Origin: Shewanella sp. SG41-4
GTDB lineage: Bacteria; Pseudomonadota; Gammaproteobacteria; Enterobacterales; Shewanellaceae
Length of the DNA stretch: 35,497 nucleotides
Reading direction: 5' to 3'
Assembly: GCF_014164505.1 (NCBI RefSeq)
Contig: NZ_JACJFI010000013.1
Location: 1 to 35,497, forward strand
The translations under genes were made by a program, and so were the position numbers. Position 1 is the stretch's first letter, and each line of letters starts with the position of its first letter. This document shows positions 13,543 through 35,497 of this stretch, in pieces. Under the pieces are notes generated by a model that made no database searches, had not been told where the DNA came from, and saw only the letters and a program-made list of their open reading frames with translations.

Positions 13543-13935
13543 TTAGTCATTCGGCAACGCTTGGATCTCAATAATGAGGCCTTCAGGGCCACGAACAAAA
13601 ATTTGTTTAATCAATGAGCCTGGCACTTCATTAATAGAATAGCGCAGGCCCAGTTTGGCAATTCTTGCCATTACATCTTGATAGTCATCACTGAAAAAAC
13701 TCACATGATGAACAATATTTTGCGGCTGCTCATTTTGCGACAGTTGATTGCTCACATCTGGCTGCTGATTAGCAAAAATATGTATCACATCTTTGTCACC
13801 GGCAAATAAAAAATAACCAGAAAACTCAAGATTAGGTCGAGTACCAACGGTTAAATCTAATAACGCCACGAGAAAATCGCTCATTTTTTGCGGATTTCTA
13901 GCACTTAATGACAAGTGATCAAAGCGAATATTCAT
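13543..13935 (-). CDS. VOC-superfamily (glyoxalase/dioxygenase-like) protein
   Basis: A 130-residue protein with the paired beta-alpha-beta-beta-beta fold signature of the vicinal oxygen chelate family. The first strand is MNIRFDHLSLSARN with a candidate metal His at residue 7. The second half opens with NIVHHVSFF, and the last strand is GLIIEIQ with a candidate metal Glu. Metal-dependent enzymes such as glyoxalase I and extradiol dioxygenases use this fold, as do binding proteins, so no reaction is assigned. The ATG at 13935 is preceded by AAAGGG; a longer frame from 13983 would translate this ribosome binding site. It is a single gene with no functional context. Confidence 0.75.
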   Translation of the reverse strand: MNIRFDHLSLSARNPQKMSDFLVALLDLTVGTRPNLEFSGYFLFAGDKDVIHIFANQQPDVSNQLSQNEQPQNIVHHVSFFSDDYQDVMARIAKLGLRYSINEVPGSLIKQIFVRGPEGLIIEIQALPND

Positions 13936-13983
13936 ACAACACCCTTTTAGAATATAGTCGACTTTAACGATTTTTATCAGCAA

Positions 13984-14429
13984 AGCCTTATATTACTGGG
14001 ATTATGACTACCAATGAACCACCACAAAAGCTAAACATTATCAAAAATTATTTGATAATCAATTAGCGAGACAATTATTCAATAAACATTAATACCATTG
14101 ACACCACACTATCCACACCTCTGTATCGATCGGATAGCAGAAGATGCAACTTACATATATTGTGCTATATGAATAAGTTAACCATTAAGTCAGTGTTGAA
14201 TAGGGAAACAACAGTATTTGCAATAAGTGCAATTTGAAAAAAAAGCGTTGCAACAAAAAACCTCTAAGTAAGCATTTTAAAAACAGTGATTTAGAATAAT
14301 TTATTGATAAGATTAAAACGTTGTTAACTCAATGCTGAGTATAAATGATGTACAACATAATGGTAATGAAAGGTTTTATAGTGATGCGCAATCCGGAAGT
14401 AAATAATAGCAGACATAATCAGTGAATGT
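13984..14429. other. AT-rich intergenic region, no gene seen
   Basis: About 450 bases between the VOC gene and the end of the J-domain operon. It is very AT-rich. I found no open frame with a ribosome binding site, no tRNA-like fold and no repeat array. Confidence 0.5.
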
Positions 14430-14457
14430 AGGAAGCTTGCTCACTTGCAAGCTTCCT
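14430..14457 (-). terminator. Stem-loop at the end of the J-domain operon
   Basis: An 11-bp perfect stem, AGGAAGCTTGC (14430-14440) with GCAAGCTTCCT (14447-14457), and a 6-base loop. It lies 10 bases after the last stop codon of the operon. No T-run follows on either strand, so it is a weak terminator or a 3'-end stabiliser. Confidence 0.5.
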
Positions 14458-14466
14458 AAAGCTAAA

Positions 14467-15360
14467 CTACAAGTCGATATAAATTGGCCAACCAAGTAGA
14501 CCAATTAAGCCTTCTTTGTATTCCAGACGCTCCAATCGTTCAGGAGAGGCATTTTGAATGGCCAACTCTTGATAGCTACGAGAGAAATGCAGCGTCCGTA
14601 ACAATGCAGCATTAAAATGTTTACCTAAATCTAAACGAATTGCATCAGCAAGCTCGTTAGGTAACTCAGCTAAAGCTGCCTTAGTTTGTTGCTCGATAAA
14701 CTCAAGGTTAAACCATTCATCTTTAAGTTCTATACGAGCCATGCGTCGTTTAAGATCTTGACGGACTTTTTTACCGTCAAAAAATATCCGATATAACACG
14801 GCTTCTGCCAGAGTACTTTCTAGATTAATATAATCCATTGGATCAAAAGTGCCGACAATGTAGAACTGTGCCAATAAGGCATTAATTGATTGCTGGCGAT
14901 TATGCTCAGCTAATGCTTCTTGGTAGTAAGCCCAGCCTTGCCATTCGTCACAATCAGGTGGACTCGAGACTTGATCAAGCAATACTTTATCCACGTCACC
15001 ATAAACTGATTTACCATGAAGCCTGTGTTGACTAACTTTAGTTAACATCCCCCAGCCCTTCTGGAACGACTTAACTACGCCGTCATCAGTCAGTAGCAAC
15101 CGTATAGCATTAGCCTGACTTAGGTCCGATAATGCCATTAAGCCAATGCTAACAATGCCAATGACATCTTGCGCGGCTTCTTCAAGCAAATGCATTTTAT
15201 ACTTGTTATAAAACTTATCAGCGAACTTAAGGCTCATCAAAATGGCTTTCGCTTTGATCTGTCCCAATTGCTCATTACTGAGCAATTCTTCGGTTCGGCC
15301 ATAAGCCAACACCCGACTCAGATAGGGACCCTGATTTTCGTCACGTAATACCAATTGCAT
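14467..15360 (-). CDS. Unknown protein, fourth gene of the J-domain operon (297 aa)
   Basis: I do not recognise this 297-residue protein. It looks soluble and mostly helical, with no signal peptide or clear membrane span, although IVSIGLMALSDLSQANAIRL (about 69-88) is quite hydrophobic. Tryptophans cluster in DEWQGWAYY and a basic stretch KKVRQDLKRRMARIE lies near residue 200. It ends in GLLGWPIYIDL. The gene starts 11 bases after the 251-residue neighbour and is last in a four-gene operon led by a J-domain protein. It is the least acidic of the three unknown partners. Tight spacing suggests it acts with them, perhaps as a client or scaffold of the DnaK/J system. That role is inference from position only. 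Confidence 0.8.
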   Translation of the reverse strand: MQLVLRDENQGPYLSRVLAYGRTEELLSNEQLGQIKAKAILMSLKFADKFYNKYKMHLLEEAAQDVIGIVSIGLMALSDLSQANAIRLLLTDDGVVKSFQKGWGMLTKVSQHRLHGKSVYGDVDKVLLDQVSSPPDCDEWQGWAYYQEALAEHNRQQSINALLAQFYIVGTFDPMDYINLESTLAEAVLYRIFFDGKKVRQDLKRRMARIELKDEWFNLEFIEQQTKAALAELPNELADAIRLDLGKHFNAALLRTLHFSRSYQELAIQNASPERLERLEYKEGLIGLLGWPIYIDL

Positions 15361-15371
15361 TTGCAGAACCC

Positions 15372-16127
15372 TTAATCAAGAAAGCTAAACATATCATCAA
15401 CTTCAGCATATTCGTCGGTGACCTGGTTCTTTTCTTTCGCCTGTATCACTAACTCGCTGGCAAACTGGCTGATAATTAGCTGCCAGTCAGAGCCGGTGTT
15501 ACGCAGCATGTTCTTAATCGCCTTTTCAACATTAGGCGCTCGATCGCGGATCAATGCTAATAAACTGCGCGGGTCATCGATGCTAAGACTGTGTGCCTCT
15601 TCATCGGCTTGCCAATCTGAGTAACCCACGGTTTCTTCATCCGCTTCATCATCAAAAGTGTCGTTGATCTCATCGTCATCACCGCTGCTACCGCCTAAAA
15701 TAAGCTCGATAAACGGAATCGATAGATAAAACAGCGCAGCAGGATCTTCAGCCAAACACTCTAAAATTGCGGTTTGTTTCTCTTCATTGTCTTGGATTCG
15801 AATAAGATAAGTCATAAAATCAAAAGTATGCTGCATTAACTCTTCGGCATTACTTTTGATTTTTTCTTCCCAATAAAGTGGCTGCTGGCAGACAATGTCG
15901 CGGATCTGTTCTGGAGTCATTAACTCAGACATAATAGATGGGCACGAAATATCATGCTGACTATTAATTTGTGTCAGCGTGACGATATCCATTTTCTCGA
16001 TAACTTCAACCAACTGATCATCTGACATCGACGATGCAATCAATTCAAATCTCTTGCTGGCCTGTTTAGGCTCAACATTAGCCAGCTCTTGTATTTCAGC
16101 GGCTGTTATTTCAATGAGACTGTTCAT
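15372..16127 (-). CDS. Unknown acidic protein, third gene of the J-domain operon (251 aa)
   Basis: I do not recognise this 251-residue cytosolic protein. The N-terminal 130 residues look like helical repeats, with hydrophobic heptads in QASKRFELIASSMSDDQLVE and LMTPEQIRDIVCQQPLYWEE. A central acidic linker (GDDDEINDTFDDEADEETVG, about 150-169) and a second helical part ending in VDDMFSFLD follow. Its start overlaps the previous stop (ATGA), and the next gene starts 11 bases after its stop, so it is translated as part of one operon with the J-domain gene. The acidic linker recalls chaperone or nucleic-acid-mimic proteins, but no function can be assigned. Confidence 0.8.
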   Translation of the reverse strand: MNSLIEITAAEIQELANVEPKQASKRFELIASSMSDDQLVEVIEKMDIVTLTQINSQHDISCPSIMSELMTPEQIRDIVCQQPLYWEEKIKSNAEELMQHTFDFMTYLIRIQDNEEKQTAILECLAEDPAALFYLSIPFIELILGGSSGDDDEINDTFDDEADEETVGYSDWQADEEAHSLSIDDPRSLLALIRDRAPNVEKAIKNMLRNTGSDWQLIISQFASELVIQAKEKNQVTDEYAEVDDMFSFLD

Positions 16128-16651
16128 TCGATATCCTCATCATATTGGTCATAATAACCTTCTTCATCGCTATCATAGTCCGTGTCGTCATCATCGTTTT
16201 CATCACGTTCATGCTCATGAAGACCATCAGAATCATCTTCCTCAGGCTTGGGCGCTGTATCTCCCTGAGTCTCTAATAAATACACCACGGCACAACTTTC
16301 GATAAGCAAATCTTCGTTATATTTACGTACCGCAAGCGCCAGAGGAAGATCGGTATTGTTAAACGCAATCGTCGTTTTAAATTCATCCCAGCTTGGGTGA
16401 ATATTCAAGCTAATCCAATGCGCCCATTGGCGCTTTGACTCAGGCGAGAACTTAACTCTTTCATAAAGCGCGACAGGTAAATATTCAGGGACTGAATCTA
16501 GCATCCCAGGATCGGCCAACAATATCTCTCTGATTTGGCTAGTAAACTTTGCCAGTGCATTTGGCGTATCAGGGTCGTTGTAAGATTCTATATTGTCATT
16601 GGCATTATTTTTTAGCTCATTAATGCGTGAGATATTAAGATGTTTAGCCAT
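16124..16651 (-). CDS. Unknown protein with long acidic tail, second gene of the J-domain operon (175 aa)
   Basis: I do not recognise this 175-residue protein. A helical N-terminal body of about 135 residues (with PEYLPVALYERVKFSPESKR and WAHWISLNIHPSWDEFKTTI) leads into a C-terminal tail of about 39 residues. By my count 23 of these are Asp or Glu, mixed with Tyr and Ser (DDDDTDYDSDEEGYYDQYDE). Such tails occur in chaperones and DNA- or histone-mimicking proteins. I start it at the ATG at 16651, 7 bases after the J-domain stop; a longer frame from 16714 would overlap the J gene by 56 bases. It overlaps the next gene by ATGA. Confidence 0.75.
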   Translation of the reverse strand: MAKHLNISRINELKNNANDNIESYNDPDTPNALAKFTSQIREILLADPGMLDSVPEYLPVALYERVKFSPESKRQWAHWISLNIHPSWDEFKTTIAFNNTDLPLALAVRKYNEDLLIESCAVVYLLETQGDTAPKPEEDDSDGLHEHERDENDDDDTDYDSDEEGYYDQYDEDIE

Positions 16652-16658
16652 GGGATAC

Positions 16659-16943
16659 TCAGGAATAATATTCGTCCCACAACTCGCGCATAGCGGCTGT
16701 GGGATCGGTAACAATTACGTTGTTAAAATCATTGATAAAAGCATTTCTCTGCTTTTTATCTGACAACACTTCGTAAGCTTTTTTGACTCGTTGGAGCTGG
16801 ACAGATGCTTGTTGCTTTTCATCATCAGACGCCCCAAGTAATTTGTCAGGATGGTACTTATTCGATAAACGTTTATAGGCTTTTTTTATGTCATCTTCTT
16901 TGGCATTGGCTCTGACGCCCAGTACGCTAAAGTGGTTAATCAT
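16659..16943 (-). CDS. Stand-alone J-domain protein (DnaJ-like co-chaperone)
   Basis: A 94-residue protein that is almost entirely J domain: helix I FSVLGVRANAKEDD, helix II IKKAYKRLSNKY, the HPD motif at residues 31-33 (YHPDK), then helix III RVKKAYEVLSDKKQRNAF. It has no G/F region, zinc finger or membrane anchor, so it is a class C J protein. The HPD motif is what stimulates the ATPase of an Hsp70 such as DnaK. A short tail, AAMRELWDEYYS, may be the partner-binding part. It heads a four-gene operon whose other three products are unknown. A sigma-70-type promoter lies about 75-105 bases upstream. It probably recruits DnaK to the co-encoded proteins or to their shared target (inference). Confidence 0.9.
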   Translation of the reverse strand: MINHFSVLGVRANAKEDDIKKAYKRLSNKYHPDKLLGASDDEKQQASVQLQRVKKAYEVLSDKKQRNAFINDFNNVIVTDPTAAMRELWDEYYS

Positions 16944-17018: not shown

Positions 17019-17048
17019 ATTATATCAACAATCACAGGCTTGCAGCAA
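17019..17048 (-). promoter_or_regulatory. Sigma-70 promoter of the J-domain operon
   Basis: Read on the minus strand: TTGCTG (17043-17048), an 18-bp spacer, then an extended consensus -10, TGaTATAAT (hexamer at 17019-17024). Transcription should start near 17012, leaving a leader of about 70 nt before the J gene. The rest of the 324-bp gap (16944-17267) holds no gene; it contains a 14-bp tandem repeat at 17087-17113. Confidence 0.65.
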
Positions 17049-27816: not shown

Positions 27817-29220
27817 TTAAAAACGTAACGTAAGATCAATCAGCTGCGCATCGTCATCGTATGAATCAAAATTAATCGACAACATCACAGTCCCTTTTGT
27901 CAGCATAATGTTATCAAAATTATCTTCTGCGTTTGGGTATCGCTCCAACAATTGCGATTTGATAGTAGGCAAATGATAACTAGCAAGCACAGCATTAAAT
28001 TCACTCATCGTTTGCGTGCCAAACATCGACTCGGTAATTTTAATTGAATTAACGACTCCTTGGCGATCAAAACCCAATAATACATTGCTATTCACCAGCA
28101 CTTTTGGACCGTTGTCTGTCAATTGGATTTGGTTGATGAGCTGTTGTGGTTGCAAGGTATAAGCTTGCTTAAATGCTAATGTCAACAATGTTGCGATGTC
28201 GATATTATCAAAGTTACCGAACTTAACGTGATGATCATCAGTGACTGTTAATGGCATAATGGCAAAGCTGTTAAGTCGAGAAACAGCAGCATTATCTAGA
28301 CTTTCATTATAGTCTTCAAAGGTTAATATCAATCGGCTATTTTTACCTGCCACACTGTAAACATCACCTTGCTTTTTAAGCGCTAAATGCGCTTTCACGC
28401 TAGCAAGCCCATCACCTTGACGCACTTGGTTAGCAATCACCCAATTATCGCCATCATAGTTTTCACTTAAGGCAATTTGGTTTTGACCATGGCCATTTAA
28501 CAATCCTAAATCCTGGGTAATCATCTCGATACGATTGTCTTTAACAACAAACCATAGACTGCGCCCATAACCATAAACGGTTGCACCATTGTCGAGTTGC
28601 AACTGAATACTGTGAGGACCTAATGCTTGTTGTAAAACATCAACCGAGTCACCAATGTGTATGCCATAGGCGCTGTCGGTTGTAATAAGCGCATCAGGTG
28701 CTTGGTGTTTTTGCGCTTGCTTTAATACATTCCCCTCGTTTGGCATCGTCAATTGAACTGTGGTTTGGGTATACGAAACCGATTTACCTTCGCTGTTATA
28801 AGGTGTTGGATCTTTGCTCAGTTGTGTATCGTCACAAAAGGTAACGTATTGCGCAGTGGTAATCACATGGATTTGCTTGGTGTTCGATTTAACTCGGCTA
28901 CTGTCATCTTGCAAGTCAATACTTCGCTCAATTCCACCAACACTTAATCTATCAATAATAATCGCATCCGCTCCTGCTGCTGCAGCTTTTCGCTGTATTT
29001 CCACAAAGGCTTGTTGTATATAAGCATCACGATGGGACAACACGCCATCACTAGACGATTCCAGCAAGTCTGGGTCAATATCGTAGACGATTTTATCATT
29101 GGCTGTATTAATAGTGTGTGGACTACAAAGTGGGTAAAAATCTAAAATTGGCGGTAAATCATTGGCGTTTATAGCAGGGCTTAACATTGCACAACCAATC
29201 AAAAAAAGTGAAGATTTCAT
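27817..29220 (-). CDS. Unknown secreted (periplasmic) protein (467 aa)
   Basis: I do not recognise this 467-residue protein. The N-terminus is a Sec signal peptide (MKSSLFLIGCAMLSPAINA, cleavage after ANA/N). The mature part begins with a segment including AAAAGADAIIIDRL, a pattern seen in several small periplasmic domains of envelope proteins. It continues as a mainly beta-rich body with repeated hydrophobic strands (ITTDSAYGIHIGDSVDVLQQ, TVYGYGRSLWFVVKDNRIEM) and ends in LSINFDSYDDDAQLIDLTLRF; the terminal Phe is like that of outer-membrane proteins, though a barrel is not evident. Two Cys (PLCSP, TFCDD) could form a disulfide. It is transcribed divergently from the CotH-like lipoprotein gene, about 290 bp away. 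Confidence 0.75.
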   Translation of the reverse strand: MKSSLFLIGCAMLSPAINANDLPPILDFYPLCSPHTINTANDKIVYDIDPDLLESSSDGVLSHRDAYIQQAFVEIQRKAAAAGADAIIIDRLSVGGIERSIDLQDDSSRVKSNTKQIHVITTAQYVTFCDDTQLSKDPTPYNSEGKSVSYTQTTVQLTMPNEGNVLKQAQKHQAPDALITTDSAYGIHIGDSVDVLQQALGPHSIQLQLDNGATVYGYGRSLWFVVKDNRIEMITQDLGLLNGHGQNQIALSENYDGDNWVIANQVRQGDGLASVKAHLALKKQGDVYSVAGKNSRLILTFEDYNESLDNAAVSRLNSFAIMPLTVTDDHHVKFGNFDNIDIATLLTLAFKQAYTLQPQQLINQIQLTDNGPKVLVNSNVLLGFDRQGVVNSIKITESMFGTQTMSEFNAVLASYHLPTIKSQLLERYPNAEDNFDNIMLTKGTVMLSINFDSYDDDAQLIDLTLRF

Positions 29221-29508: not shown

Positions 29509-30996
29509 ATGTTTTCCCTTAATAACTTACACCTCAAAAAGCGGTTAATTAACCAGCCAATGACACTATTACTTATCATGACACTCAGTTGTGCTTTCAT
29601 ACTCACAGGTTGTGGTAGCGACAGTGATAGCAACAGCGAAATAGCCGAAACGGTCATTAGCTCTGATACTGACACAAGCACTGATACCGAAACAGAGGTC
29701 ACTGACGCAGATTTTGTAGCGACCGATTGGACAGACGAAACCCACAGCAAAAATGTCGACCCTAACTTTGATGAAGTGTTTAGTGATACCGAAGTTAAAC
29801 GGCTTGATATCGTTGTCACACAAGCGCGCTGGCAAAGCATGTTAGATGACATGACGGCACTCTATGGTGAATTTGGTAGAAGCTCATCAAATAGCTTAAG
29901 TGATACCGATGAAGATCCTATTTTTGTTCCAGCTGAAGTATTTTATAACGGCACGCAATGGTATCGCGTCGGCATCCGCTTTAAAGGTAATTCATCACTG
30001 CAAACTAGCTGGCAACAAGGCATTCTTAAACTGGCACTTAAACTTGATTTCGACGAGTATGAAGACGATTACCCGCAAATTAAAAACCAACGCTTTTATG
30101 GCTTTAAAAAGTTTAGTTTAAAAAACAACTTTGATGACGAGTCAATGTTACGTGAAAAAGTTGCTGCGGATGTGTTTAAAGATGCAGGGCTTGCTGTATC
30201 TCACACTGGGTTTTATACCTTATACGTTGACCATGGCGACGGCCCTGAATATTTTGGTTTATATACTCTTGTAGAAGAAATTGATGACACTGTAATCGAC
30301 ACGCAATTTTCTAGCGACAAAGGTAACTTGTACAAACCCGAAGATGATGGCGCAATGTTTGTTGATGGGTCATTTAATCAAGAAGACTTTGAGAAAAAAA
30401 CTAACGAAGACGACGAAGATTGGTCTGACATACAAGCCCTGTTTACCGCCCTACACGCCGACACTCGCAGCACAGATCCTGAAACATGGCGAGCCAATCT
30501 AGAAACGGTATTTGATGTTGATGTATTTTTAAAATACTTAGCCGTTAATGGCATCATTCAAAACTGGGACACTTACGGCTTAATGCCACACAATTACTAT
30601 TTATATAACAATCCAGACAATTCAAAACTGACCTGGATACCTTGGGACAACAACGAAGCATTGCAAGACGGGAAACAAGGTGGCGCATTGTCGTTAGACT
30701 TCTCAGACCTCAACTCAAGCAGCTGGCCACTCATATCAAAACTGTACGCAGATGATGTATACCGTGACCGCTACAACCAGTTTTTACTTGAGGTTATCAG
30801 CGATGCATTCGAAACCAATAAAATACAAGCAAGCTACAATGCTTACTCTGCACTTGTTGCCCCTTATGCGACCACTGAAGTATCTGGGTATAGCTTTTTA
30901 GAAAGTAGCAGCGATTTTTACCGTGCTATCGATGAGCTAATAGAGCATGCAGAAGATAGAGCCACTGCTGTAGAAAGCTATTTAGACAAACAATAA
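29509..30996 (+). CDS. CotH-kinase-family lipoprotein
   Basis: A 495-residue lipoprotein. The signal peptide ends in a lipobox, LTGC (C35), followed by an acidic Ser/Asp/Thr-rich linker to about residue 85. The body matches the CotH protein-kinase-like fold: FKGNSS near residue 164, FKKFSLKNNFDDESMLREK, YFGLYTLVEEIDD with the conserved Glu/Asp, KGNLYKPED, and the metal-binding segment TWIPWDNNEALQDG. B. subtilis CotH phosphorylates spore-coat proteins. In Gram-negative marine bacteria the family is found in secreted or outer-membrane proteins of unknown target. The start has AGGAGA upstream. A strong terminator follows. Being a lipoprotein, any kinase activity would be outside the cytoplasm, where ATP is scarce, so the donor is an open question. 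Confidence 0.85.
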   Translation: MFSLNNLHLKKRLINQPMTLLLIMTLSCAFILTGCGSDSDSNSEIAETVISSDTDTSTDTETEVTDADFVATDWTDETHSKNVDPNFDEVFSDTEVKRLDIVVTQARWQSMLDDMTALYGEFGRSSSNSLSDTDEDPIFVPAEVFYNGTQWYRVGIRFKGNSSLQTSWQQGILKLALKLDFDEYEDDYPQIKNQRFYGFKKFSLKNNFDDESMLREKVAADVFKDAGLAVSHTGFYTLYVDHGDGPEYFGLYTLVEEIDDTVIDTQFSSDKGNLYKPEDDGAMFVDGSFNQEDFEKKTNEDDEDWSDIQALFTALHADTRSTDPETWRANLETVFDVDVFLKYLAVNGIIQNWDTYGLMPHNYYLYNNPDNSKLTWIPWDNNEALQDGKQGGALSLDFSDLNSSSWPLISKLYADDVYRDRYNQFLLEVISDAFETNKIQASYNAYSALVAPYATTEVSGYSFLESSSDFYRAIDELIEHAEDRATAVESYLDKQ

Positions 30997-31071: not shown

Positions 31072-33258
31072 TTACATGCTGGCTTTTACTTTACGCGCTT
31101 GATGTAGTTTTTTGTAGCTTTCGATCAAACGTAAATGCGGTTCAATGCCTTCAAGGTTCATACTGGTTTTGCTCAGGCCATAAAAACGGACTGTGCCATT
31201 AACCGAACCGACGACATTTTCCATCACTTCTTTACCAAACATGCGGTTGAAGTTAGCCATAAAGTGTTCAAGTTCTAAGTCTTCATCTAAGGTTACTTCA
31301 AGCACTGCACTCACTGCTTGGTAAAACAAGCCACGCTGTACAGTATTGTCGTTAAACTGTAAGAACTCACCTACCAATTCAATAGCGTCTTCGTGCGAGC
31401 CCAATGCAAGATAAATCAAAATCTTCAATTCGATAATGGTTAACTGGCCCCAAACCGTATTTTCATCGAACACAATACCAATTACGGTACGAATATCGGT
31501 ATGGTTATCTAGCTGACTTTCTTCTAGACGATTAACTAACTTACCTAACGCTTTAGTGCTTAATGAATGCAGATTTAAGATATCTTCACGGTAGTTTAAA
31601 GACTTATTGGTGTTGTCCCAAATCAAGTCATCTACTGGATATACTTCTGAATATTCCGGGACTAAAATACGACACGCAGATGCGCCTAAATCTGTAAACT
31701 CGGCAATATACACTTCTTTGCCCATGGCCTCTAAAATACCGAATAAACCGCTGGCTTCTTCTTCACTAGTACCAGTAAAGTCCCATTCACTAAATTCGTA
31801 ATCAAACTTACTACTAAAGAAACGCCAAGAAATAACCCCTGTTGAATCAATAAAGTGTTCAACAAAGTTTTCTGGCTCTGTCACTGCCATGCTGTTAAAC
31901 GTTGGCTTTGGCACATCATTTAAGCCTTCAAAGCTGCGACCTTGTAATAACTCGGTTAAGCTGCGCTCTAATGCCACTTCAAAGCTAGGGTGTGCACCAA
32001 ATGAGGCAAATACACCGCCAGTACGTGGGTTCATCAACGTCACGCACATTACCGGGAATTGGCCGCCTAAAGAAGCATCTTTCACTACAATAGGGAAGCC
32101 TTGCTCTTCAAGCCCTTTAATACCCGCTAAAATACTTGGGTATTTCTCAAGCACTGCCATTGGCACATCGGGTAGTACAATTTCTTGTTCAATGATTTGG
32201 CGTTTTACTGCGCGTTCAAAAATCTCAGATAAGCACTGAACATGGGCTTCTTGCAAGTTATTACCTGCACTCATGCCATTACTTAAAAATAGATTCTCGA
32301 TTAAGTTAGACGGGAAATAAACCGTTTCCCCATCTGACTGACGCGTGTATGGAATAGCACAAATACCACGATCTTTATTGCCTGAGTTAGTATCAATTAA
32401 ATGCGAACCACATAACTCTTCATCGGGGTTATAAATATCTAGGCAGTACTCATCCAAGATGCCTACTGGCAGTGCATCATCGTCTTCTAGTGCAAACCAT
32501 TTTTCATTTGGGTAATGCACAAAATCGCTATTGGCGATTTCAGTACCAAAAAATTGATCGTTATAGAAAAAGTTATTATTAAGACGCTCTATAAACTCGC
32601 CTAAAGCAGAACATAACGCGCTCTCTTTAGTGGCACCTTTACCGTTGGTGAAACACATAGGTGATGCTGCATCACGAATATGCAAAGACCACACGTTTGG
32701 CACAATATTACGCCATGAAGAAATTTCGATCTTCATGCCAAGGTCGGCTAACAAGCCAGTCATGTTTTTAATAGTTTGCTCAAGCGGTAAGTCTTTACCT
32801 AAGATAAAAGTACTCGCATCAGCTTCAGCTTGACCCATCAACATCGCATTGGCGTCAGCATCTAAGTTTTCAACCGTTTCGATTTTAAATTCAGGTCCAG
32901 TTTGCACTACTTTTTTAACAGTACAGCGATCAACTGAACGTAAAATACCTTGGCGATCTTTATCCGAGATATCATCCGGTAACTCAACCTGAATTTGGAA
33001 TATTTGGTTATAGCGATCTTCCGGGTCGACAATATTATTTTGCGACAATTTGATATTTTCAGTCGAAATATCACGGGCTTTACAATACACCTTGATGAAG
33101 TAAGCGGCACAAAGCGCTGAAGATGCTAAGAAATAATCAAAAGGACTAGGAGCTGAACCATCACCTTTGTAACGGATCGGCTGATCGGCGGTGACGGTAA
33201 AGTCGTCAAACTTAGCTTCGAGTCTCAAATTATCGAGAAAATTTACTTTGATTTCCAT
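31072..33258 (-). CDS. ycaO: OsmC-YcaO fusion protein
   Basis: A 728-residue fusion. Residues 1-135 form an OsmC-like domain (SPFDYFLASSALCAAYFIKV and VDRCTVKKVV, each with one Cys near the expected OsmC positions). Residues from about 195 to 560 form a YcaO domain with its ATP/Mg signatures: KGATKESALCSALGEFIERL, GNNLQEAHVQCLSEIFERAV and SFGAHPSFEVALERSLTELLQG. The last 150 residues are helical (TPR-like), as in E. coli YcaO, and lack the Pro-rich C-terminus of azoline-forming YcaO enzymes. YcaO proteins activate amide bonds with ATP; the E. coli protein is linked to RimO-dependent methylthiolation of ribosomal protein S12. No precursor peptide gene is nearby, so a housekeeping role is likelier than peptide biosynthesis. 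The OsmC part may bind or relay a thiol. Confidence 0.88.
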   Translation of the reverse strand: MEIKVNFLDNLRLEAKFDDFTVTADQPIRYKGDGSAPSPFDYFLASSALCAAYFIKVYCKARDISTENIKLSQNNIVDPEDRYNQIFQIQVELPDDISDKDRQGILRSVDRCTVKKVVQTGPEFKIETVENLDADANAMLMGQAEADASTFILGKDLPLEQTIKNMTGLLADLGMKIEISSWRNIVPNVWSLHIRDAASPMCFTNGKGATKESALCSALGEFIERLNNNFFYNDQFFGTEIANSDFVHYPNEKWFALEDDDALPVGILDEYCLDIYNPDEELCGSHLIDTNSGNKDRGICAIPYTRQSDGETVYFPSNLIENLFLSNGMSAGNNLQEAHVQCLSEIFERAVKRQIIEQEIVLPDVPMAVLEKYPSILAGIKGLEEQGFPIVVKDASLGGQFPVMCVTLMNPRTGGVFASFGAHPSFEVALERSLTELLQGRSFEGLNDVPKPTFNSMAVTEPENFVEHFIDSTGVISWRFFSSKFDYEFSEWDFTGTSEEEASGLFGILEAMGKEVYIAEFTDLGASACRILVPEYSEVYPVDDLIWDNTNKSLNYREDILNLHSLSTKALGKLVNRLEESQLDNHTDIRTVIGIVFDENTVWGQLTIIELKILIYLALGSHEDAIELVGEFLQFNDNTVQRGLFYQAVSAVLEVTLDEDLELEHFMANFNRMFGKEVMENVVGSVNGTVRFYGLSKTSMNLEGIEPHLRLIESYKKLHQARKVKASM

Positions 33259-34724: not shown

Positions 34725-35497
34725 CTAGCGAATCGTTACGTTTCGTCCAAAGTATTCTTCAGACTCATACTTAGCGATTACTTTTTCAAGTGTTTCGCCG
34801 TGATTATCCATAACCAATTTATGTGAAATAGCACTAAGTGAAATCAAAATATCTTTACACTCAATTCTGGCTTTCATCACCGAGCCTGAAGCCGTTCTTA
34901 ACACTTGAGAAATTAACTCATGATTTTTGCCAATTAAGGCTAAAATAAAATGAACCATCACTTCAGAACAAAGCTCTTTATCTTCAATTTTACTTGGTCT
35001 AACGACCTTTTCTAAATAATCTTCTTCTCTTCCTGAAGGAACAAAACGCTGTACCCAATAGAAATAATCTTCATCATAAATGATTGATTGTATTGGTTTC
35101 ATAAAGGTTTCGTCTGTCGATATTTTTTGAAAAAGCTCTTTTTTGACTTCATCAGATACGTCTATCAGCTCATCACCAAATTCTTTATTGAGCAATGAAA
35201 TGACCGCTTCCAATTCTTTTAACAGAGATACATTTCCTGATGTCACTTGGTTATAAGCATCACCGACTTCGTCGATGTTTTGTTGGAATACACCAATATA
35301 CTTATCACCTTCTTCAATGGCATCAAGTAAAGGTATCAAGCTATAACGTCTAACCTGTATCAACTCATAAAACTGACCTAATTCTTCACGAATCGCTTGG
35401 AGACGATCAATCGCTTTAATAAGAAATTTATCATCTCTTTTTATCGCTAGGTTCAATCGTGAAAAATCGAGTTGATCGTTTATTTTACGTACTCGGT
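34725..35497 (-). CDS. Unknown helical protein (partial, 5' end outside window)
   Basis: The frame is open to the right edge; at least 257 residues are visible. The only start-like codon near the edge (TTG at 35456) has coding sequence upstream of it (RVRKINDQLDFSRL), so the true start lies outside. I do not recognise the family. It is soluble and nearly all helical, rich in Glu/Lys/Ile, with probable coiled-coil stretches (LQAIREELGQFYELIQVRRY and VSLLKELEAVISLLNKEFGD). A short tryptophan/tyrosine-rich region (YDEDYFYWVQRFVPSGREED) lies in the middle. No signal peptide or membrane segment is visible in this part. A hairpin follows the stop. Confidence 0.7.
   Translation of the reverse strand, partial: RVRKINDQLDFSRLNLAIKRDDKFLIKAIDRLQAIREELGQFYELIQVRRYSLIPLLDAIEEGDKYIGVFQQNIDEVGDAYNQVTSGNVSLLKELEAVISLLNKEFGDELIDVSDEVKKELFQKISTDETFMKPIQSIIYDEDYFYWVQRFVPSGREEDYLEKVVRPSKIEDKELCSEVMVHFILALIGKNHELISQVLRTASGSVMKARIECKDILISLSAISHKLVMDNHGETLEKVIAKYESEEYFGRNVTIR

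Follow-up and report, generated by a model that had tools for sequence, protein, structure and literature searches.

What does a minimal J-domain protein do at the head of an operon whose three other products look unfamiliar? The question is raised by four minus-strand open reading frames at positions 14467-16943 of a contig from Shewanella sp. SG41-4, with products of 94, 175, 251 and 297 amino acids; the whole stretch of 35,497 nucleotides that was analysed is referred to here as the window. A first-pass annotation of this DNA described a four-gene arrangement in which a J-domain protein with an HPD motif at residues 31-33 is followed by three unrecognised partners, spaced by 7 bases, an ATGA overlap and 11 bases, and it ranked the cluster as the most likely undescribed system in the window. 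The description of the genes is accurate: they are co-directional and closely spaced in the order J-A-B-C, with 7 bases between atcJ and atcA, a 4-base ATGA overlap between atcA and atcB (a gap of -4) and 11 bases between atcB and atcC. The supposed undescribed system, on the other hand, turns out to be a published operon. Its genes are as follows.

16659-16943, minus strand: atcJ, a 94-aa J-domain protein (HPD at residues 31-33) whose C-terminal extension contains P-x7-W (NF050028, PF00226).
16124-16651, minus strand: atcA, 175 aa from its ATG, with a strongly acidic C-terminal tail (NF047888).
15372-16127, minus strand: atcB, 251 aa, a predicted array of short helices with an acidic insert and a DDMF tail (NF047889).
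14467-15360, minus strand: atcC, 297 aa, predicted to be mostly helical (NF047890).

The three partners look unknown because Pfam recognises the J domain only. The first protein matches PF00226 at 68.1 bits (cut-off 27.8), and its sequence has both the HPD motif and a C-terminal extension some 21 residues long; AtcA, AtcB and AtcC match no Pfam family above its cut-off. NCBIfam, in contrast, names all four proteins, each above the curated equivalog cut-off of its model. AtcJ scores 179.9 bits against NF050028 (cut-off 150; E 9.5e-54), with residues 1-93 aligned to profile positions 1-93, in a model that spells the name as ActJ. AtcA reaches 270.5 bits against NF047888 (cut-off 200), AtcB 497.6 bits against NF047889 (cut-off 440) and AtcC 507.3 bits against NF047890 (cut-off 370). 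The nearest named relative of AtcC, from S. frigidimarina, is 99% identical. The description of the partners as unrecognised is thus not borne out. The annotation had also allowed that each partner might fall into a known family with an unrelated role; the families are instead named for one shared cold-adaptation role. We put the probability at roughly 0.94 that the locus is orthologous to atcJABC, the cold-adaptation operon of Shewanella oneidensis, and works as a dedicated DnaK co-chaperone set.

Elsewhere in the window, a 728-residue protein (31072-33258) carries an OsmC domain before YcaO and YcaO_C, and a CotH kinase family protein (29509-30996) has a start that reads lipoprotein-like from its sequence. 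Three further frames, at 34725-35456 (243 residues), 27817-29220 (467) and 13543-13983 (146), have no Pfam match at E <= 1e-5.

The atcJABC genes of S. oneidensis (SO_1850, SO_1849, SO_1848 and SO_1846) were characterised in 2019 (PMC6715715), and the four-gene system itself is therefore not new. According to that study, the genes are co-transcribed, AtcJ stimulates the DnaK ATPase, and an H31Q change in the HPD motif nearly abolishes the stimulation. The last 21 residues of AtcJ bind AtcC, with an affinity of 7 nM for full-length AtcJ and 80 nM for the tail peptide, and AtcC binds AtcB. Growth at 7 C is reported as strongly reduced without AtcJ, AtcB or AtcC, but not without AtcA (PMC6715715). 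The locus in the window resembles the S. oneidensis operon in its four families, assigned by curated cut-off, in gene order and in its tight spacing; S. oneidensis AtcJ likewise has 94 aa, HPD at residues 31-33 and a C-terminal extension. The two differ in the atcJ-atcA gap, which is 120 bp there versus 7 bases here; a short gap of 8-24 bp was seen in 74 of the 80 genomes considered by the same authors (PMC6715715). We found no experiments on the Shewanella sp. SG41-4 operon in the open-licence literature. What survives of the first-pass proposal is the dedicated DnaK chaperone set, in view of genes that are inherited together (below) and co-transcribed in S. oneidensis; its status as undescribed ended with the 2019 study.

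Whether the genes belong together at all can be judged from their distribution, since the three partners might be unrelated genes that happen to lie behind a J-domain protein. We scored 104 loci, comprising 68 AtcC-relative loci from a scan of genome contigs, 35 further loci and the window; this set includes some places twice, and the end of a locus or contig truncates some of the genes. The 68 loci come from Shewanella, Parashewanella, Alishewanella, Rheinheimera, Arsukibacterium and unassigned gammaproteobacteria. At 101 of the 104 loci, the full set was detected as J-A-B-C on a single strand, and the remaining three (L035, L086 and L097) sit at contig or locus ends. A survey of gene neighbourhoods had been suggested by the first-pass annotation as a way to see whether the four genes travel together, and they do.

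Presence across genomes gives the same picture. In the genus of the window, AtcB and AtcC were detected in an identical 40 of 117 genomes, and neither was found in the other 77. AtcJ scored above its cut-off in 39 of the 40 and in none of the 77; matches to the AtcJ model below the cut-off occurred in all 117 genomes, as expected for a J domain that is common to other J proteins. In the larger sample of the order, AtcB and AtcC again shared an identical set of genomes (35/247). The genes occur in the same genomes and keep their order, and the set is therefore inherited as a unit; this co-occurrence in both samples, together with the order and strand kept at 101 loci, refutes a chance cluster, to which we give a negligible probability. 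A class-wide survey of 369 genomes returned AtcC from the window's own genome alone, and AtcB from that genome plus a stop-containing fragment at 19 bits that we took as a chance match. The single record from the plasmid collection, of Aeromonas caviae, has the size of a chromosome.

Two irregular copies were seen along the way. In the fortieth AtcB/AtcC-bearing genome of the genus (G697, C1:3410225-3410502), stops interrupt the AtcJ match, and the AtcB and AtcC frames are both intact; its atcJ is either a pseudogene or affected by a sequencing error. At L108:10220-10426, about 4 kb after an intact atcC, lies an open frame of 69 residues similar to residues ~233-271 of AtcC, perhaps the remnant of a second atcC copy.

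Roughly two in three genomes sampled from the genus manage without the atc set. Because AtcB and AtcC were not found in 77 of the 117, members of the genus cannot generally require the set. Such patchiness is also typical of defence genes, and the first-pass annotation had raised the idea of a defence or regulatory assembly under DnaK control. The searches lend that idea no support: none of the four proteins matched a PADLOC model at E <= 1, and in PHROGs at E <= 1e-3 only the J protein matched, to families without a named function (AtcA reached 0.22 at best; AtcB and AtcC had no match). Given in addition the known cold phenotype in S. oneidensis (PMC6715715), we regard a role in anti-phage defence, or another regulatory role of this kind, as highly improbable.

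The co-inherited proteins carry conserved short motifs. P-x7-W is present in the tail of the window's AtcJ and in 103 of the 104 J proteins scored (two of the 103 are the window's own gene again); the single exception, at L001 in the window's own genome, is a DnaJ-sized protein of 376 aa. Weber et al. (Environ Microbiol, 2023) have reportedly described the conservation of AtcJ, its P-x7-W motif and its presence in beta- and gamma-proteobacteria. In all 105 AtcB tails compared, two of which are repeats of the window, D[DE]MF is followed by three or four final residues. In the window, this element reads as follows.

15375-15404, minus strand: DDMF tail of AtcB, with the invariant D[DE]MF, acidic and hydrophobic.

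Its conservation makes the D[DE]MF tail a possible docking peptide. AtcA is marked instead by its charge: D+E make up 57% of the last 40 residues in the window's protein, and 47% on average in 103 sequences (range 27.5 to 60%). In a comparison of seven pairs, 25 of the 28 dN/dS values could be computed and all lay between 0.01 and 0.15, AtcA included; synonymous sites were saturated for the other three values and close to saturation for several more. AtcA is therefore under selection, despite having no reported cold phenotype.

A far-diverged version of the operon extends these observations. Four genomes of the same order, from two genera in two families, keep the J-A-B-C order with gaps of 54 to 120 bases.

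L104, 6244-8809: diverged J-A-B-C cassette.
L105, 5810-8322: diverged J-A-B-C cassette.
L106, 1473-3959: diverged J-A-B-C cassette.
L107, 598-3037: diverged J-A-B-C cassette.

In pairwise comparisons over aligned residues, identity between the L104 and L105 proteins and those of the window is 36-40% for J, 23% for A, 30-31% for B and 22-25% for C; in multiple alignments, it is 28-29% for B and 17% for C. All eight proteins of these two loci fall below the NCBIfam Atc cut-offs (AtcB scores 80.7 and 80.4 versus 440), and general DnaJ models outscore the AtcJ model on their J proteins. P-x7-W and DDMF are nevertheless retained in all four cassettes, which fits one machine with two branches.

The first-pass annotation had also pointed to a good extended -10 promoter upstream, and one is there as an exact match.

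17019-17027, minus strand: extended -10 element TGATATAAT, beginning 84 bases before the atcJ start codon.
14429-14458, minus strand: 12-pair hairpin without a T run after it, just past atcC.

A single exact extended -10 in the window, versus 2.91 expected, is not beyond chance by itself. The comparison across loci is more informative: 53 of 72 loci have TGnTATnAT within 160 bases upstream of atcJ, whereas 100 dinucleotide-shuffling rounds gave a mean of 1.03 and at most 4; the 72 loci are related and hence not independent. Even a looser extended -10 form is absent upstream of atcJ at the three diverged loci examined (L104-L106) and at L108 and L109. A scan for two-hexamer promoters listed none at the extended -10 site and gave nothing usable at the operon ends. 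At the other end, the 81-base stretch containing the hairpin has a folding z-score of -3.63, with none of 200 shuffles equally stable, and a scan for intrinsic terminators found no canonical site. The hairpin may mark a 3' end or serve as a processing signal.

Structural models of the partners, also proposed by the first-pass annotation, gave helical predictions for AtcC and AtcB; a convincing solved relative did not emerge for either. AtcC is modelled as mostly helical (pLDDT 85.8, pTM 0.77). Foldseek returned nothing for this model at E <= 0.001, and the top VIA match reached Z 3.5 (4.5 A over 100 residues). The AtcC sequence alone matched no solved structure at E <= 1, and its profile gave one weak match, to Crov588 (6nyr; E 0.0022), in which no stretch passed alone. 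The AtcB model is weaker (pLDDT 70.2, pTM 0.64) and shows consecutive helices as in helical-repeat scaffolds, with a low-confidence acidic insert at residues 146-180 and pLDDT under 50 at residues 234-251, which include the tail. It too had no Foldseek match at E <= 0.001. Its best VIA match is a TOG domain (Z 7.7, 4.5 A over 153 residues), and the others include many helical-repeat proteins, among them MgtE cytosolic domains at Z 6.9 and 6.2. Because a Z under ~13 between helical-repeat proteins may reflect a mere common arrangement, we call AtcB a helical array only. Against solved structures, the AtcB sequence gave 12 matches (best E 0.14) and its profile four (best E 0.65). The missing fold match does not show that AtcB or AtcC has a new fold; the two models fit adaptor proteins, and neither in itself shows a function.

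How, then, might the set work? AtcJ is a minimal class C J-domain protein whose J domain would trigger the DnaK ATPase, as was shown for the S. oneidensis orthologue. Its 21-residue tail, with P-x7-W, would dock on AtcC, and AtcC would in turn hold AtcB; both contacts have been demonstrated in S. oneidensis. The set would thereby direct DnaK to a single dedicated client or location, a function that S. oneidensis needs at ~5-10 C. By analogy, we infer that the SG41-4 operon acts in the same way.

The partners themselves could be the clients: AtcJ would hand AtcC to DnaK, and the AtcB-AtcC pair, once folded or remodelled in the cold, would work without DnaK. It would suit this arrangement that AtcJ or its tail raises the melting temperature of AtcC from 31 C to 44 C (PMC6715715). 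HscB-IscU-HscA, an example given in the same paper, is a precedent for encoding a class C J protein together with its client, and resembles the Atc set in having a dedicated J protein of that class whose gene adjoins its partner's. The likeness stops there, as four HscB models, with cut-offs of 46.75 to 198, give AtcJ 23 to 28 bits, and the Pfam and NCBIfam matches of the Atc partners include no Fe-S family. The 7 nM affinity between AtcJ and AtcC, moreover, better fits a lasting complex than a passing client according to the authors (PMC6715715), and we consider it rather unlikely that AtcC, AtcB or both are the clients.

For the dedicated co-chaperone set that we favour, the published candidate for the end target is RNA polymerase, which AtcB contacts according to a meeting report (PMC7871303). 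That meeting report is the one place in which this target is stated, and we give even odds to RNA polymerase being the target, reached through AtcB; a later workshop report describes the Atc mechanism as still to be elucidated (PMC10939069). A fuller scheme, in which an AtcJ-AtcC-AtcB tether would put DnaK on RNA polymerase in the cold, D[DE]MF of AtcB would be the docking element, the L104-L107 version would be a second branch and AtcA would serve another condition, seems to us unlikely as a whole. Two observations sit uneasily with the favoured reading. The published model gives AtcA no role, yet the protein is conserved and under purifying selection, and the S. oneidensis operon is expressed constitutively, which its authors say may indicate a further role besides cold (PMC6715715).

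Our additions to the published system are modest: a promoter element at most of the loci examined, an invariant AtcB tail, selection on AtcA, patchy presence in the genus and a diverged version. The short conserved motifs, the co-inheritance of the four genes and their patchy presence in the genus are simple handles on the molecular target of the Atc proteins.
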